Source: Paludibacteraceae bacterium (GTDB taxonomy: Bacteria; Bacteroidota; Bacteroidia; Bacteroidales; Paludibacteraceae). From it: 64,000 bases of DNA. Every line of letters begins with the position of its first letter. Positions within the stretch are counted from its first letter, which is position 1. The notes below the pieces were generated by a model, which was not told the origin of the DNA, ran no database searches, and saw nothing but the letters and a program-made list of their open reading frames with translations. Where the stretch lies: contig JAFWXW010000001.1 of assembly GCA_017517845.1 (NCBI GenBank), positions 124,001-188,000 on the forward strand, read 5' to 3'. A program made the translations under genes and the position numbers. Shown here piece after piece: positions 127-5,102 of the stretch.

Positions 127-400
127 TGTTATAATTTGCATTAGGTGGAATGAATACTGCTTGTTGTTCTTTATACCATTAACGTGTAAAAAATGCACGT
201 TAATATCTCTTTCAACTTTTGTTTAAATCACGATACAAATGGAACAGGAAAATTTAGTTGTAAAGGATTCCTTGACAACTAAAATAATATATAAAAATAA
301 TATTATCAACACGCAAAAAATACGTCTTGTTATGAGCATTAGTAGCAAATACCTGCCATTACTTGAGGTCACAATTTGTGACCTCAAGTTGTAGTAATGT
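127..400 (-). pseudogene. Decayed fourth ORF6N/PLD-like paralogue
   Basis: Two short stretches match the intact paralogues to the right. At 127-172 the minus strand reads KEQQAVFIPPNANYN. It joins the middle of the shared C-terminal domain (HNKQYS in intact copies) directly to its last residues (NIPPSAIL), as if about 140 bp were deleted. At about 345-400 it reads HYYNLRSQIVTSSNG, matching the LRSQIATSSNG segment of the ORF6N gene, with an in-frame stop upstream. The sequence between these stretches (about 175-340) shows no recognisable gene. A plausible reading is that a fourth tandem copy was eroded by deletions. The second stretch could instead be only a mobile palindrome, because it coincides with the repeat at 361-389. 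Confidence 0.5.
361..389. repeat. Extragenic copy of the ORF6N-embedded palindrome
   Basis: Perfect palindrome with 14-bp arms (ACTTGAGGTCACAA / TTGTGACCTCAAGT) and a single central T. The same sequence occurs inside the ORF6N gene at 1874-1902, and a compensated variant at 1814-1842. Flanking matches (CCATT on the left) extend the similarity to the copy at 1814. Confidence 0.85.
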
Positions 401-491
401 GCAATAGTTACAAATTACTGCTTGTGACTCTATTACTTTTAGAGTGTCTTTTATGCAAGTGTTCGGAAAAACCTAACACTTGACTCAAATT

Positions 492-1156: not shown

Positions 1157-2176
1157 TTATAAAATCGCACTTAGCGGAATATTTAATTTAGAAAATGCAA
1201 AAAGTTTCTTTCCCAAATCTTTTAGCGAAGCCCCGATGTGATAAACTTCTGTGTCATCAATGATTAAAAACCTATCGTGCGATGTAGTATGATTATGGAC
1301 ATTAATAGGAGAATACTGCTTATTGTGTTTTTGTAAGTCCTGTCTAAGAGTTTGTGAAATAGGGTAGGTGTAAATGTCGGCAATGACGCTAGGCTTGCGT
1401 TTGCTCAACATAAGCAGTACCGACTCATCAATGTAGTTGTCAATAAGCACCAAACTTTTATTTGCCGATTTAATCAAATCCGTAGCAAACTTATACGCAT
1501 CAAAAATCTGCCCATTGTGGAAAACTCCTTCAATAGGTAGTTCGTGTTTGGCAAGAGCATTGAATAGTGTTTCTATTTTAGCGTCAGTATTATCTTGTCT
1601 CTGCATTACCAACAACTGATGATGTTCTAAGTTTTCAATTCGATTAAAGAGTTTGCTGTTGGAAATCAAAGAATGACGCATAGCAACGAAAGCACGCATT
1701 ATCTGAATGTTGACACTAATTGCTGTTTGAGAACGAAGTACAGAACTCAACATTGAAACACCACTTTCAGTAAATACGTATGGCATATAGCGTATGCCAC
1801 CATGCTTGCCATTACTTGAGGTCGCAATTTGCGACCTCAAGTTGTGAATGCATTCATAATTAGAAGATTCTATACTTGAGGTCACAATTTGTGACCTCAA
1901 GTTATTTTCAAACTCTTCATTCGTAAGCTGAAACATAAAATCCTCAGGAAACCTCTCAATATTCCTTTTTACAGCTTCGTTTAAACGTTTGGTCTCCACT
2001 CCATACAGACGTGCCAAGTCGCGGTCAAGCATCACTTGCTTCCCTCTAATGTTTAAGATAAGGTTTTCAATGTTCTCTAATGGAGTTTGCACAGAGGTTA
2101 ATACTTCTTTCTCTGCAGTTTGCTTTGCTTGTAAATCAGTTTTCATATTGATGCTTGAAAGATGTTTTTTTAGCAT
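1157..2176 (-). CDS. ORF6N-domain DNA-binding protein with PLD-like C-terminal domain
   Basis: Residues about 35-180 match the ORF6N family of phage-related DNA-binding regulators (NIRGKQVMLDRDLARLYGV, then RFPEDFMFQLT, then YVFTESGVSMLSSVLRS). The C-terminal 120 residues (from IEGVFHNGQIFDAYKF) contain SHDRFLIIDD and YHIGASLKDLGKK, reminiscent of a phospholipase-D-like fold with a degenerate HxK motif. This half is almost identical in the two RhuM-type genes to the right, so it is a shared effector or oligomerisation module. The ATG at 2176 overlaps the preceding gene's stop by 7 bp (ATGCTAA), suggesting translational coupling. The internal ATG at 2146 begins MKTDLQAKQTA, exactly where both paralogues start, and may be the real start. 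The module carries a duplicated 20-residue unit, LRSQI(V/A)TSS, encoded by a palindrome. The molecular role is unknown. Confidence 0.85.
   Translation of the reverse strand: MLKKHLSSINMKTDLQAKQTAEKEVLTSVQTPLENIENLILNIRGKQVMLDRDLARLYGVETKRLNEAVKRNIERFPEDFMFQLTNEEFENNLRSQIVTSSIESSNYECIHNLRSQIATSSNGKHGGIRYMPYVFTESGVSMLSSVLRSQTAISVNIQIMRAFVAMRHSLISNSKLFNRIENLEHHQLLVMQRQDNTDAKIETLFNALAKHELPIEGVFHNGQIFDAYKFATDLIKSANKSLVLIDNYIDESVLLMLSKRKPSVIADIYTYPISQTLRQDLQKHNKQYSPINVHNHTTSHDRFLIIDDTEVYHIGASLKDLGKKLFAFSKLNIPLSAIL
1814..1902. repeat. Two palindromes embedded in the ORF6N coding sequence
   Basis: 1814-1842 and 1874-1902 are 29-bp palindromes with 14-bp arms and one central base, spaced exactly 60 bp (20 codons) apart. 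They differ at two positions, one in each arm (GGTCACAA/TTGTGACC versus GGTCGCAA/TTGCGACC), so pairing is preserved. They encode LRSQIVTSS and LRSQIATSS on the minus strand. Confidence 0.9.
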
Positions 2177-2712
2177 TTTGTGTATATAAGTTCGTAGTTG
2201 TCAAAAGTAGAATTTTCTTCTAAAATTCCATTCAGGAAATAAAATTTATTGTAATAGTATTGATAATTATCAATTTCTTCTTCTAGAAAAACTATATTTT
2301 CATTGTGTTGGTTTATTTCCTTGTCAATTTTATCATATATCTCTAGATTTGCTTTAACAATCCGTTTTTCTAATCTTTCAATTATTTCCTTACTATTAAT
2401 GATGCTTTCCTTATAATCGTTAATTCTTTCTTTATAAAAATCTAGAATATTGTCAAGAAGATTTTTTGTAAGAGGTTTTGGGTCTGGGCTATATGGTAAA
2501 ACATCTAATTCTCTGCTTGGGGTAGTCCCAATGTAAAATAGTTTACACCCGAATGATTTGTGAACAATGTTGTTGTATTCTTCAACTTCTTTAATTAGTT
2601 TATGAATATCTTTATCTTCAAGTCCGTGTGTTTCTTCTCCACTTGGGTAATCTTTATATTCAAGTAAAGGTTTATCTTTACTTCTTAAATAAACAGTTGT
2701 ATATTCACTCAT
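2170..2712 (-). CDS. Uncharacterised coiled-coil-rich protein
   Basis: I do not recognise the family. The 180-residue protein begins MSEYTTVYLRSKDKPLLEY and has no signal peptide or membrane segment. Residues about 90-160 are rich in Lys, Glu, Ile and Asn with heptad-like spacing (NSKEIIERLEKRIVKANLEI, then IVFLEEEIDNYQYYYNKFYF), suggesting a coiled coil. It lies immediately upstream of the ORF6N gene on the same strand and overlaps it by 7 bp, so the two are probably co-transcribed. The spacing suggests a partner of the ORF6N protein or cargo of the same mobile segment. Its very low GC content resembles the neighbouring accessory genes. Confidence 0.6.
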   Translation of the reverse strand: MSEYTTVYLRSKDKPLLEYKDYPSGEETHGLEDKDIHKLIKEVEEYNNIVHKSFGCKLFYIGTTPSRELDVLPYSPDPKPLTKNLLDNILDFYKERINDYKESIINSKEIIERLEKRIVKANLEIYDKIDKEINQHNENIVFLEEEIDNYQYYYNKFYFLNGILEENSTFDNYELIYTKC

Positions 2713-3005
2713 ATTTTTTCATATTATGTTAATAAATTCTTTTTTAGATAGGTTTTTACTTAAAATCTGTACGAATTTAAATCATTAAATCGTGTTTTCA
2801 AAGTATTAGAGAGTCTATTTTTGAAATATTCCAAATGTTTTGTTTTTTAGAATTTTATGAAGAAATTTCTGGTTGTTTTGTTCTAAAATTTAGAATTTCT
2901 TGATTATATAAAACTTAGTTGTTGCAAATTCTTCACATTACATTCATAACTGCAAGAGGTAATTTTTATAACTAGTTGTAAAGAACGTAGCGTGCTGCGT
3001 CCGTG
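2713..3005. repeat. Palindrome-rich intergenic region
   Basis: No gene is seen. At 2881-2895 there is a palindrome TTCTAAA-A-TTTAGAA. At 2917-2930 AGTTGTTGCAAATT repeats one arm of the palindrome embedded in the third paralogue (4823-4849). At 2983-3002 lies a copy of the GTAGGGAC-family palindrome (GAACGTAGCGTGCTGCGTCC), 3 bp beyond the stop of the middle RhuM gene. Confidence 0.5.
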
Positions 3006-3917
3006 TTATAAAATTGCACTTGGTGGGATGTTCAATTTTGAAAAAGCAAAGAGTTTCTTTCCCAAATCTTTTAGCGAAGCACCGATGTGGTATACTTCTG
3101 TATCGTCGATGATTAGGAACCTATCGTGCGACGTGGTGTGATTATGTATGTTGATAGGAGAATACTGCTTATTGTGTTTTTGTAAGTCCTGTCTAAGAGT
3201 TTGTGAGATAGGGTAGGTGTAAATATCGGCAGAGACTCCAGGTTTGCGTTTGCTCAACATAAGAAGCACCGACTCATCAATGTAGTTGTCGATAAGCACC
3301 AAACTCTTATTTGCAGATTTAATCAAATCAGTAGCAAACTTATACGCATCAAAAATCTGCCCGTTGTGGAAAACTCCTTCAATAGGTGGAAGCGAAGTGC
3401 GAACGAAGAAGTCGATTTTGTCTTCGTGTTTGTCAAGTATAGCTCTATGTTCTTTGAGTTGCTCTTCTATCAACTCAAACTTGTAATTTAACGCGTGTCC
3501 ACGCAATAAATATTCTTTCAGAACTTTGTTTGCCCATTGGCGGAAAAGAGTTGCATTTCTGCTATTTACTCTATATCCTATTGATAATATGGCATCTAGA
3601 TTGTAAAAACCTGTATTATAAATCTTACCATCATTGGCAGTATATTCCAAAATGGAATAAACTGAATTTATGTCAAGTTCTTCTGAGGTAAAGATGTTTT
3701 TTAGATGTTTAGAAATAGCCGGTTGCCCAACCCCAAAGAGGCTTGCAATCTGTGCTTGCGTCAACCACACCGTCTCATTCTCCAAGCGCACTTCAAGACT
3801 AATGGTGTCGTTAGGACGGTAAAGGATAATTTGATTTTGTTCTTTTGCGGAAACTTCGTTAACACTCAAAGAAGTCTCTTCCCTTGCAGTTTGCTTTGCT
3901 TGTAAATCAGTTTTCAT
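3006..3917 (-). CDS. RhuM-family DNA-binding protein with PLD-like C-terminal domain, paralogue 2
   Basis: The 303-residue protein begins with the shared leader MKTDLQAKQTA. Residues about 28-160 match the RhuM virulence-protein family: IILYRPNDTISLEVRLENET, WLTQAQIASLFGV with a helix-turn-helix look, DGKIYNTGFYNLDAILSIGYRV, and FRQWANKVLKEYLLRGHALN. A short helical linker (ELIEEQLKEHRAILDKHEDK) leads to the PLD-like domain with SHDRFLIIDD and YHIGASLKDLGKK, nearly identical to both neighbours. Compared with paralogue 3, the linker and C-terminal half are conserved while residues about 55-120 differ, as expected for module exchange or gene conversion. It has its own promoter at 4050-4081. RhuM was named after a Salmonella island gene; its biochemical role is not established. 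Confidence 0.85.
   Translation of the reverse strand: MKTDLQAKQTAREETSLSVNEVSAKEQNQIILYRPNDTISLEVRLENETVWLTQAQIASLFGVGQPAISKHLKNIFTSEELDINSVYSILEYTANDGKIYNTGFYNLDAILSIGYRVNSRNATLFRQWANKVLKEYLLRGHALNYKFELIEEQLKEHRAILDKHEDKIDFFVRTSLPPIEGVFHNGQIFDAYKFATDLIKSANKSLVLIDNYIDESVLLMLSKRKPGVSADIYTYPISQTLRQDLQKHNKQYSPINIHNHTTSHDRFLIIDDTEVYHIGASLKDLGKKLFAFSKLNIPPSAIL
3638..3664. repeat. Palindrome embedded in RhuM paralogue 2
   Basis: 27-bp palindrome: CAGT, one mismatch, TATTCCA, AAA centre, TGGAATA, one mismatch, ACTG. It encodes SVYSILEYTA on the minus strand. The palindrome in paralogue 3 (4823-4849) has the same length, the same outer CAGT/ACTG and the same position in the protein, but different inner arms. 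Confidence 0.8.
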
Positions 3918-4049
3918 AATCGTATAAAATTTAAAATTCTAATTCTTTACAGAATTAAGTTTAATAATAAAGTGTTCTCTCACATTCTCACTTTACTTCT
4001 TCTTTGGCAGTGGGGGCTACCTTTTACATTTCTTTATTCAGCAGTGGTA

Positions 4050-4081
4050 CAAAGGTAGGGAAAAAGTGAGAGATATGCAAT
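4050..4081 (-). promoter_or_regulatory. Predicted promoter of RhuM paralogue 2
   Basis: On the minus strand, -33 ATTG (4078-4081), 20-bp spacer, -7 TACCTTTG (4050-4057), fitting the Bacteroidota consensus. It lies about 130 bp upstream of the start codon. The 150-bp leader downstream is duplicated in front of paralogue 3. Confidence 0.65.
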
Positions 4082-4103
4082 ATAACTAACCCTCTCCACA
4101 CCA

Positions 4104-4123
4104 GCACCCCCGTAGGGTGGTGC
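4104..4123. repeat. Palindrome with CCCGTAGGG core, second copy
   Basis: GCACCCCCGTAGGGTGGTGC, an imperfect palindrome between the RhuM genes, related to the one at 1128-1146 beside the ORF6N gene. Confidence 0.5.
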
Positions 4124-4159
4124 AACTGAGTTGTTAGTTTAGTGGTGCATTTTCCATAA

Positions 4160-4174
4160 GTTCCAAAATGGAAC
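4160..4174. repeat. Extragenic cognate of the palindrome inside paralogue 2
   Basis: GTTCCA-AAA-TGGAAC shares the 13-base core TTCCAAAATGGAA with the palindrome inside paralogue 2 (3638-3664). It lies about 80 bp upstream of that gene's -33 element and 17 bp beyond the stop of paralogue 3. Confidence 0.7.
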
Positions 4175-4190
4175 ATGTGCTGCGTCCGTG

Positions 4191-5102
4191 TTACAAAATT
4201 GCACTTGGTGGAATGTTCAATTTAGAAAATGCAAAGAGTTTTTTGCCCAAATCCTTTAACGAAGCCCCGATGTGATAAACTTCTGTGTCATCAATGATTA
4301 AAAACCTGTCGTGCGACGTAGTGTGATTATGTATGTTGATAGGAGAATACTGCCTATTGTGTTTTTGCAAATCCTGTCTAAGAGTGTGTGAAATAGGGTA
4401 GGTGTAAATATCGGCAGAGACTCCAGGCTTGCGTTTACTCAACATAAGAAGCACCGACTCATCAATGTAGTTGTCGATAAGCACCAAACTTTTATTTGCC
4501 GACTTAATCAAATCCGTAGCAAATTTATACGCATCAAAAATCTGCCCGTTGTGGAAAACTCCTTCGACAGGTGGAAGCGAAGTGCGAACGAAGAAGTCGA
4601 TTTTATCCTCGTGTTTGTCAAGTATAGCCCTATGTTCTTTGAGTTGCTCTTCTATTAACTCAAATTTGTAATTTAATGCGTGTCCACGCAATAAATATTC
4701 TTTTAGGACCTTGTTAGCCCACTGGCGGAATTGTGTACCACGAATACTTTTAACGCGATAACCTACTGATATAACTACGTCTAGATTATAATAATCGACC
4801 TGATAAATTTTACCATCTGAAGCAGTTGTTGCAAATTTTGCAACAACTGACTCTTCTAGTAATTCTTTTTCTTGAAAGATGTTTTTGACGTGTCTTGAGA
4901 TAGTAGATTTGTTCCTCTGAAATAAATCTGACATCATTTCTTGCGTCAACCACACCGTGTCATTCTCCAAACGCACTTCAAGACTAATTGTGTCGTTCGG
5001 GTGGTAAAGGATAATTTGATTTTGTTCTTTTGCGGAAACTTCGTTAACACTCAATGAAGTCTCTTTCTCTGCAGTTTGCTTTGGTTGTAAATCAGTTTTC
5101 AT
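4191..5102 (-). CDS. RhuM-family DNA-binding protein with PLD-like C-terminal domain, paralogue 3
   Basis: 303 residues, beginning MKTDLQPKQTAEKE. The RhuM module reads IILYHPNDTISLEVRLENDT, WLTQEMMSDLFQRNKSTISR (helix-turn-helix-like), DGKIYQVDYYNLDVVISVGY and FRQWANKVLKEYLLRGHALN. The linker and PLD-like C-terminal domain (SHDRFLIIDD, YHIGASLKDLGKK) match paralogue 2 almost residue for residue. The region around residues 55-120 differs, including the helix-turn-helix and the segment SVVAKFATTA, which is encoded by a 27-bp palindrome. The promoter at 5236-5267 and the leader are a duplicate of those of paralogue 2. Such tandem copies with divergent recognition modules suggest diversified DNA specificity attached to a common effector. 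That is an inference. Confidence 0.85.
   Translation of the reverse strand: MKTDLQPKQTAEKETSLSVNEVSAKEQNQIILYHPNDTISLEVRLENDTVWLTQEMMSDLFQRNKSTISRHVKNIFQEKELLEESVVAKFATTASDGKIYQVDYYNLDVVISVGYRVKSIRGTQFRQWANKVLKEYLLRGHALNYKFELIEEQLKEHRAILDKHEDKIDFFVRTSLPPVEGVFHNGQIFDAYKFATDLIKSANKSLVLIDNYIDESVLLMLSKRKPGVSADIYTYPISHTLRQDLQKHNRQYSPINIHNHTTSHDRFLIIDDTEVYHIGASLKDLGKKLFAFSKLNIPPSAIL
4823..4849. repeat. Palindrome embedded in RhuM paralogue 3
   Basis: 27-bp perfect palindrome with 13-bp arms (CAGTTGTTGCAAA / TTTGCAACAACTG) and one central base. It encodes SVVAKFATTA. A 14-base half copy (AGTTGTTGCAAATT) lies outside the gene at 2917-2930. Confidence 0.9.

Follow-up and report, generated by a model that had tools for sequence, protein, structure and literature searches.

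The replication origin of phage lambda, located inside gene O, is the closest precedent for the arrangement described here, since the sites of a dimeric DNA-binding protein form part of that protein's own coding sequence (PMC3985674; this and the other papers given by PubMed Central number are represented here by excerpts). In lambda, four iterons in the middle of one gene serve replication. We analyze palindromes within one ORF6N and two RhuM genes of a 64,000-nucleotide stretch from a Paludibacteraceae bacterium (the window; positions 124,001 to 188,000 of contig JAFWXW010000001.1, assembly GCA_017517845.1), and within related genes. In contrast to lambda, there is usually one palindrome, located in DNA predicted to encode the wing of a winged-helix module, and the arrangement extends over four Pfam families and comes with a readable helix-to-site code.

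The genes studied here belong to the Bro-N/KilA-N/ORF6N network, for which domain swapping has been described (PMC10111431). Overproduced Bro and Ant proteins slow growth, and Bro/Ant pairs were once taken for toxin-antitoxin systems, but the paired Xre proteins did not neutralise Bro or Ant; unlike the present analysis, the excerpts of that report do not mention operators inside the gene (PMC4257102). Palindromes within reading frames are also known as Rickettsia palindromic elements of about 150 bp in unrelated genes, for which, in contrast to the genes here, the excerpts mention neither a fixed place nor a cognate protein (PMC10969869). PARCEL repeats are similar in being coding repeats with dyad symmetry that spread by transfer, but they are 25-residue tandem repeats in open reading frames (ORFs) of unassigned function, many of them membrane-targeted, and involve no DNA-binding domain (PMC2996958). 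Among the open-licence PubMed Central papers listed in our searches, the titles, openings of abstracts and excerpts held no description of a palindrome, inverted repeat or operator within RhuM, ORF6N, KilA-N, Bro-N or DinD coding sequence. A single case, lambda O, is already known; those searches brought up no form that extends over families, with compensation and a code.

Palindromes in the window genes and their families

The three window genes lie on the minus strand: an ORF6N gene (1157..2176, 339 aa; PF10543, E = 5.3e-36, 123.2 bits against a gathering threshold of 27.8), RhuM-1 (3006..3917, 303 aa; PF13310, E = 2.5e-18) and RhuM-2 (4191..5102, 303 aa). The two RhuM genes match PF13310 with 66.8 and 79.9 bits (gathering threshold 33.7), the match reaching profile position 65 of 252 only and representing the module without the RhuM C-terminus. 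RhuM-2 as modelled by AlphaFold2 (mean predicted local distance difference test, pLDDT, 83; predicted template modelling score, pTM, 0.45) contains a recognition helix at residues 65-77, which begins KSTISRH and is encoded at 4872..4910 on the minus strand, and a hairpin at 87-105 that we read from the model as the wing of a winged-helix module. The RhuM-1 helix, beginning QPAISKH, was placed at residues 65-77 (3687..3725, minus strand) by alignment to RhuM-2, and the ORF6N helix residues KRLNE (63-67) are encoded at 1976..1990, again on the minus strand.

All four palindromes claimed for these genes by the original prediction are found. Those at 1814..1842 and 1874..1902 in the ORF6N gene (29 bp, each with 14 of 14 pairs around a 1-nt centre) and at 4823..4849 in RhuM-2 (27 bp, 13 of 13 pairs, a single central base) are perfect; the one at 3638..3664 in RhuM-1 (27 bp) is imperfect, with 11 of 13 pairs. 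The two RhuM palindromes occupy, as claimed, identical codons (SV......TA) and share outer CAGT/ACTG, that of RhuM-1 being of ATTCC type and encoding SVYSILEYTA, and that of RhuM-2 being of TTGCA type and encoding SVVAKFATTA around the first strand (87-93) of the predicted wing. The ORF6N copies, of GTCGC type at 1814 (encoding NLRSQIATSS) and GTCAC type at 1874 (a second copy in frame), do differ by one base pair, four positions off centre. Whole-gene synonymous shuffles equalled the best palindrome of the ORF6N gene in 8 of 2000 cases, that of RhuM-2 in 20 of 2000 and that of RhuM-1 in 216 of 2000. Evidence from single genes is thus mixed, with RhuM-1 unconvincing by itself, and it is the family-level test that convinces.

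For this test, families were searched in genomes that share the window's class or phylum; the loci used were the profile matches with the highest scores, to which 40 ORF6N and 20 Bro-N regions from lower in the lists were added. Non-redundant sets exclude genes that are more than 85% identical, contain N or are cut off; for RhuM, 118 rows were read and 77 non-redundant genes tested. The predicted excess over codon-shuffled controls held for ORF6N, with 75 of 77 genes beating 95% of synonymous shuffles and 60 beating all 200 (30 of 30 beat 95% in a first set), and held for most RhuM genes: 63 of 77 genes beat 95%, 19 of them beat all 300, and the mean score was 10.65 against 5.44 in shuffles. 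The 95% level was likewise exceeded by 13 of 18 Bro-N, 14 of 18 DinD-type and 13 of 15 KilA-N genes.

With a palindrome defined by a score of at least 9 in the module, 180 of 210 non-redundant genes in five groups qualify: ORF6N (72/77), RhuM (66/82), Bro-N of SPKAEPF type (13/18), the DinD type of Bro-N, which includes E. coli dinD (15/18), and KilA-N (14/15). Counting redundant rows, 224 of 280 do so. Both kinds of Bro-N and KilA-N had been taken up as possible negative controls and hold palindromes too. Among neighbouring ORFs, 10 of 428 reach the threshold in 150-nt windows; a first background count, in which antisense frames of the family genes were included, gave 35 of 863. When the best palindrome over 600 nt is taken, 183 of 210 family genes qualify versus 2 of 30 HTH_3 and 1 of 30 MarR controls, for which the longest ORF covering the match was used, some of these frames possibly being wrong. 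Chance as the cause of the palindromes is ruled out by these control counts, from neighbouring ORFs, HTH_3, MarR and shuffles.

The position is as regular as the occurrence. RhuM dyads measure 25-31 bp and lie at few offsets from the YNLD motif, there being a small set of offsets because loop length differs. A single common offset holds for all genes scoring at least 8 in KilA-N (14 of 14; 15 in the set) and in the DinD type (15 of 15; 18 in the set), the latter including the E. coli K-12 dinD palindrome TGACCATTTCGAGGAGATCCTCGATATGGTCA, and ORF6N dyads too combine a fixed position with diverse arms. Of 19 KilA-N loci, 5 scored below 9, and a frame based on the motif was obtained in 16, 13 of these scoring at least 9. 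In the right frame L200 scores 13, and L211, L212 and L213 score 5-6, L211 and L213 deriving from matches with an internal stop; L202 and L208 hold palindromes without the motif, and L218 yielded no gene. A search for Rha returned four genes, all ORF6N-like in sequence, of which three score at least 9. Four RhuM genes (L121, L098, L064 and L108) carry at least two in-frame palindromes that share their core or nearly so and differ in their outer arms.

Compensated arms and the helix-to-core code

Across 80 RhuM sites (69 distinct), 90.8% of cells are paired, against 57.6% when shuffled and 30-42% with one arm slid, and the covariation score is 0.883 versus 0.244 shuffled (standard deviation 0.017); none of 500 shuffles reaches either value. 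Pairs k3 to k7 are formed in 77, 76, 77, 76 and 76 of 77 genes, with three to four pair types each, and k10 to k12 in 72, 75 and 76, while k8 and k9 are formed in 62 and 60, and beyond k13 pairing is near the level of composition. One gene, L192, was excluded from an alignment (A4), as its site lies in another frame and was misaligned in alignment A2. The same compensation is seen in ORF6N, DinD, KilA-N and Bro-N with fewer sequences. These genes hold a dyad-symmetric DNA site at a fixed position that is maintained by compensation, and the matched changes in both arms, ascribed in the original prediction to a cause at the level of DNA or RNA, extend across families.

The dyad is independent of the reading frame. 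The GTCAC core is read as LRSQIVTSS or LVTICDHL depending on frame, TTCGG as VVRNFRTT or RKFGNSEFS, and GTGCA as VCAIFAHTA or NVHFLHI. A cause at the protein level is ruled out by such different peptides from one DNA core.

The core of the palindrome corresponds to the recognition helix encoded just upstream. In RhuM, the helix QSVI(S/A/T)RH goes with ATGCA, RTVITRH with GTGCA, KSTISRH with TTGCA, VKTIGKH with TCGCA, KQNISLH with TCAAG, VPNISMH with TTAAG, RPAITKH with GTTCC, QPAISKH with ATTCC and KSTISEH with TTCGG. The rule is not without exceptions, ESNIRRH for instance occurring with GTGCA. By plug-in estimates on 75 genes, helix position 6 shares 1.32 of 1.32 bits with base k4 and position 1 shares 1.40 of 1.48 bits with base k7. 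The correlation of core distance is 0.56 with distance between helices, 0.13-0.18 with that between other protein parts and 0.05 with loop subtype, and the partial Mantel value of 0.55 is reached by 0 of 999 permutations. In a leave-one-out prediction from the nearest helix neighbour, the exact 5-base core was right in 61.7 of 67 predictable RhuM genes, compared with 6.5 for a random pick; 54.7 of 61 were right when votes came from other loop subtypes only. The downstream domain as predictor gave 26.2 (all votes) and 19.5 (other-subtype votes). Eight of the 75 genes were unpredictable, their core being seen once, and L129 and L142 of the 77 had no helix by pattern.

A comparable code is found in ORF6N, where KRLNE goes with GTCGC, KVLNQ with GTCAC, KQLKR with GTGCC or GAGCC and KNLNK with GTTCC, and position 9 shares 1.40 of 1.49 bits with base k4 (left arm, 75 genes; 2 of 77 dropped). 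At k4, Glu goes with G (C opposite) and Arg or Lys with C (G opposite) in both families, and Gln goes with A; the code is chemically sensible. By inspection, the three window genes obey it. KRLNE pairs with GTCGC sites in other ORF6N genes, and 1814..1842 is the predicted own site of the ORF6N protein, as 3638..3664 and 4823..4849 are for RhuM-1 and RhuM-2. Neither ORF6N copy is simply a duplicate of the other: the copy at 1814 alone fits this protein's helix, and that at 1874 fits the helix KVLNQ of a paralogue, L002.

On this sequence evidence, each protein's specificity is matched by the site within its own gene. As the upstream helix predicts the core of its own gene, each protein most likely binds the palindrome inside that gene, and we hold it very probable that the palindrome is the cognate site of the encoded protein. 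The original prediction had offered selection or a copying mechanism; the match between helix and palindrome points to the former, with binding by the encoded protein as the selected property. Correction of quasi-palindromes alone was rejected as a cause: arms made in this way would bear no relation to the helix, and k3-k7 and k10-k12 pair strictly, k8-k9 do so less tightly and no pairing is left past k13.

Related palindromes, effector domains and module movement

The assembly that contains the window (1.68 Mb, 81% complete) has four ORF6N matches and seven RhuM matches in six genes by profile search. In other RhuM genes of this genome the palindrome occupies the same codons but has different arms, namely CAGTTGTTCGGAATTTCCGAACAACTG in L008, CAGTTGTCGCAAATTTTGCGACAACTG in L010 and GTAATATGCAAATTTTGCATAATAC in L012, and a shorter one in L011. 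The ORF6N gene L002 holds its core GGTCACAATTTGTGACC in another frame, encoding LVTICDHL as compared with LRSQIVTSS, and in L003 and L004, ORF6N genes cut off at contig ends, no palindrome was seen.

Related palindromes also lie outside these genes, and to this extent the list in the original prediction was incomplete. Just downstream of RhuM-2, an orphan with core GTTCCAAAATGGAAC (4154..4180, 9 of 13 pairs, E = 0.0067) recurs as 27 identical bases at C31:12169-12195, downstream of the gene L012, and fits the paralogue L011 (helix RPAITKH). The others form an array near the start of the window: a weak GTGCA-like orphan at 178..204 (10 of 13 pairs; minus-strand peptide NVHFLHVNG; same sequence at C31:11604-11630), which was missed by the scan of the window with model R1; a TCAAG/TAAAG-like one at 253..283 (14 of 15 pairs; minus-strand peptide VVKESFTTK; E = 0.005; counterpart C31:11682-11706); a GTCAC orphan of ORF6N type at 361..389 (14 of 14 pairs), which fits L002; and a weak TTCGG-like orphan at 456..482 (10 of 13 pairs; minus-strand peptide SVRFFRTLA; E = 0.027), whose counterpart at C31:11823-11849 is better paired. 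Other palindromes of the window match the strength of the weaker orphans at 178..204 and 456..482. Positions 151-651 are 92-97% identical to C31:11576-12017 (L372) in two blocks, and three of the four orphan sites of this stretch recur on C31, the fourth being part of a block (near 338-396, about 59 bases long) that is missing there. The orphan peptides are in a single minus-strand frame interrupted by stops. The orphans may be relics of genes or sites of cross-regulation. A short minus-strand gene matching LPD3 (492-905; PF18798, E = 3.7e-8) adjoins the array.

In the searched part of this one genome, the sites cluster in or beside these genes. A covariance model of the RhuM site returned, at E < 0.1 in the genome as a whole, the own sites of the six RhuM genes and one place in an unrelated frame, in a search that scored 150 of 1162 candidates, missed two of the window orphans and cannot show absence elsewhere. 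That one place is a strong RhuM-type palindrome, ATTTGTTGCATTTTTTGCAACAAAT, at C19:44286-44312 (L292), in a frame without the RhuM motif and near the start of the neighbouring frame. A sounder count comes from a full covariance run over the window and 20 further stretches (394,499 bases; 458,499 in all, about 27% of the genome), which gave nine RhuM-type places at E < 0.1: four own RhuM sites and five orphans, all five in the flanks of such genes, in the window and on contig C31. Outside these loci, that run gave no place with E below 1. The ORF6N site, at up to three mismatches, occurs at three places in the genome, all within the window.

The three window genes (1157-5102) have closely similar C-terminal domains and leader sequences but differ in their N-terminal modules, which looks as though a single effector had been combined with several specificities. 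The C-terminal domain of RhuM-2, which is common to all three, has a PLD (HKD) fold, matching FAM83, PLD2, PLD3, NucT (E = 8e-4) and Zucchini (E = 5e-3); the top six matches of the fold search were to TrmBL2, with poor superposition. RhuM-1 was assigned the same fold through 84% identity to RhuM-2. The PLD-type motif reads HDRFLIID, with Arg where the motif usually has Lys. Matches of the full-length fold include viral proteins named Bro-N (E = 2e-5), BRO and KilA-N (E = 1.1e-3), with low TM-scores. Sequence searches of the PDB gave nothing convincing (best E = 0.67 and 0.45), and NCBIfam gave weak matches only for the window proteins.

Among 4668 E. coli records matching dinD, 1932 do so at 95% identity or more and 2732 at 80-90%. 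Five genes were read (L219-L222 and L195), and these fall into two classes differing mainly in the DNA-binding module: two of the class at 95% or more have the K-12 palindrome, and three of the 80-90% class differ at codons 12-82, palindrome included, and are nearly identical in the remainder. From these sequences, the classes look like the outcome of module exchange by recombination, and the DNA-binding module seems to move as a unit. In L068 (1827-2452), N-terminal RhuM modules that are truncated and hold palindromes with other specificities lie upstream of a full RhuM gene, like a set of silent cassettes.

The palindrome as a candidate auto-operator

The explanation that we consider likely overall is an intragenic auto-operator that travels with the DNA-binding module. 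The palindrome would be a dimer-binding operator for the product of the gene that contains it, placed in wing-coding DNA directly after the recognition helix, and the module would combine a DNA specificity with the target of that specificity, each evolving along with the other. The site would then go wherever the module goes, whatever the effector domain or promoter. Most likely the bound dimer would repress its own gene, by acting as a roadblock to RNA polymerase some hundreds of bases past the gene start or through a local repressor complex. Negative autoregulation as the main role of the site has somewhat better than even support in our view; because overproduction of Bro or Ant slows growth, negative feedback would be useful.

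Several observations weigh against this explanation. Thirty of the 210 genes stay under the threshold in the module, three E. coli dinD genes of the divergent class have an imperfect dyad only, and the 95% shuffle level is not reached by 14 of 77 RhuM, 5 of 18 Bro-N, 4 of 18 DinD-type and 2 of 15 KilA-N genes. Two of five compensation measures in RhuM are not above shuffles, namely pairs changed on both sides (11 versus 11.2) and further pair types (33 versus 31.6); the compensation counts are moreover of sequences and not of independent events, and are inflated by relatedness, and each site was centred on the best among a small number of permitted offsets, which favours pairing. Mismatches in KilA-N over k1-k14 comprise 15 G-T and 3 A-C, and k2 leans to G-T in RhuM (5 versus 1) and DinD (4 versus 1). 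As to the sites themselves, the second ORF6N copy (1874) does not fit the gene that holds it, the window orphans do not fit the gene they adjoin, the RhuM-type site on C19 sits in an unrelated reading frame, and a second site with the same core, as looping would want, is found for few genes.

It is conceivable, though unlikely, that the protein binds its own site for the purpose of module exchange, with the bound protein or the PLD-fold domain provoking recombination or gene conversion. The dinD alleles, which differ across module and palindrome and are near-identical after, would agree with this, as would the truncated modules of L068, the orphan array common to the window and C31, to which the window alone adds a palindrome block of about 59 bases, and the PLD fold itself. 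Palindromes are, however, equally present in DinD and KilA-N genes and in RhuM genes with a RhuM C-terminus (L008), none of which is known to have a PLD domain, and the tract exchanged in dinD encloses the module, with no end at the palindrome.

Binding within the own gene could alternatively start replication or partition of a carrier element, as in lambda, where dimeric O binds four 19-bp iterons in the middle of its gene (PMC3985674), and several members of the families are indeed phage or satellite-phage genes. We regard this as improbable, as one site is usual and there is no iteron array, an extra same-core site being present in the locus of 8 of 130 genes (2.4 expected) and within the gene itself in a few, and as dinD lies on the chromosome.

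Any inverted repeat can fold, and the palindromes could act as RNA hairpins in attenuation, transcript stability or translation control, for which the lean of KilA-N mismatches to G-T might speak. In the other groups, G-T mismatches are not commoner than A-C: 6 versus 10 in RhuM (k3-k12), 4 versus 7 in ORF6N (k3-k13), 3 versus 5 in DinD (k3-k14) and 7 versus 8 in Bro-N (k3-k12). Pairing extends to the base beside the centre in 48 of 69 distinct RhuM sites, and the hallmarks of an RNA hairpin, G-U tolerance and an unpaired loop, are absent from RhuM, ORF6N, DinD and Bro-N, KilA-N being the exception. Since one core can yield unrelated peptides and tolerance of G-U is not seen outside KilA-N, the constraint lies on DNA, which narrows the earlier alternative of DNA or RNA to DNA for the RhuM, ORF6N and Bro-N groups. 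An RNA hairpin, which would also leave the helix-to-core code unexplained, is very improbable.

Least probable of all, and rejected as a general cause, is insertion of in-frame mobile elements like those of Rickettsia, which could account for the extra in-frame copies in the window ORF6N gene, L064, L098, L108 and L121 and for the block absent from C31, but not for a fixed homologous position in modules of hosts that by record titles span several phyla, for arms that differ with compensated changes, for a length of 25-38 bp as opposed to about 150 bp (PMC10969869), or for the helix code.

Extending the auto-operator to the whole Bro-N/KilA-N/ORF6N/RhuM network is more speculative, and we give it slightly less than an even chance. 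Its genes would be self-addressed, with reader and text in one DNA, each paired helix and palindrome would be a record of specificity, and sites of foreign specificity in or beside genes, as in the window and on C31, would link these mobile genes into networks in which they silence one another, giving regulators a form of superinfection immunity.

One stretch of DNA would here stand, as a clear case, under two codes, for a protein and for an operator, in several reading frames. If the auto-operator explanation is true, the DNA target of common but poorly understood regulators of phages and mobile elements could be read from the gene alone, and the pairing of helix and palindrome would allow a DNA-recognition code to be read from genomes alone. 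It would also account for a DNA-binding module remaining self-regulated while it is shuffled among effectors and hosts. As the known DNA-damage-inducible gene dinD of E. coli K-12 is included, the explanation is testable in any laboratory.

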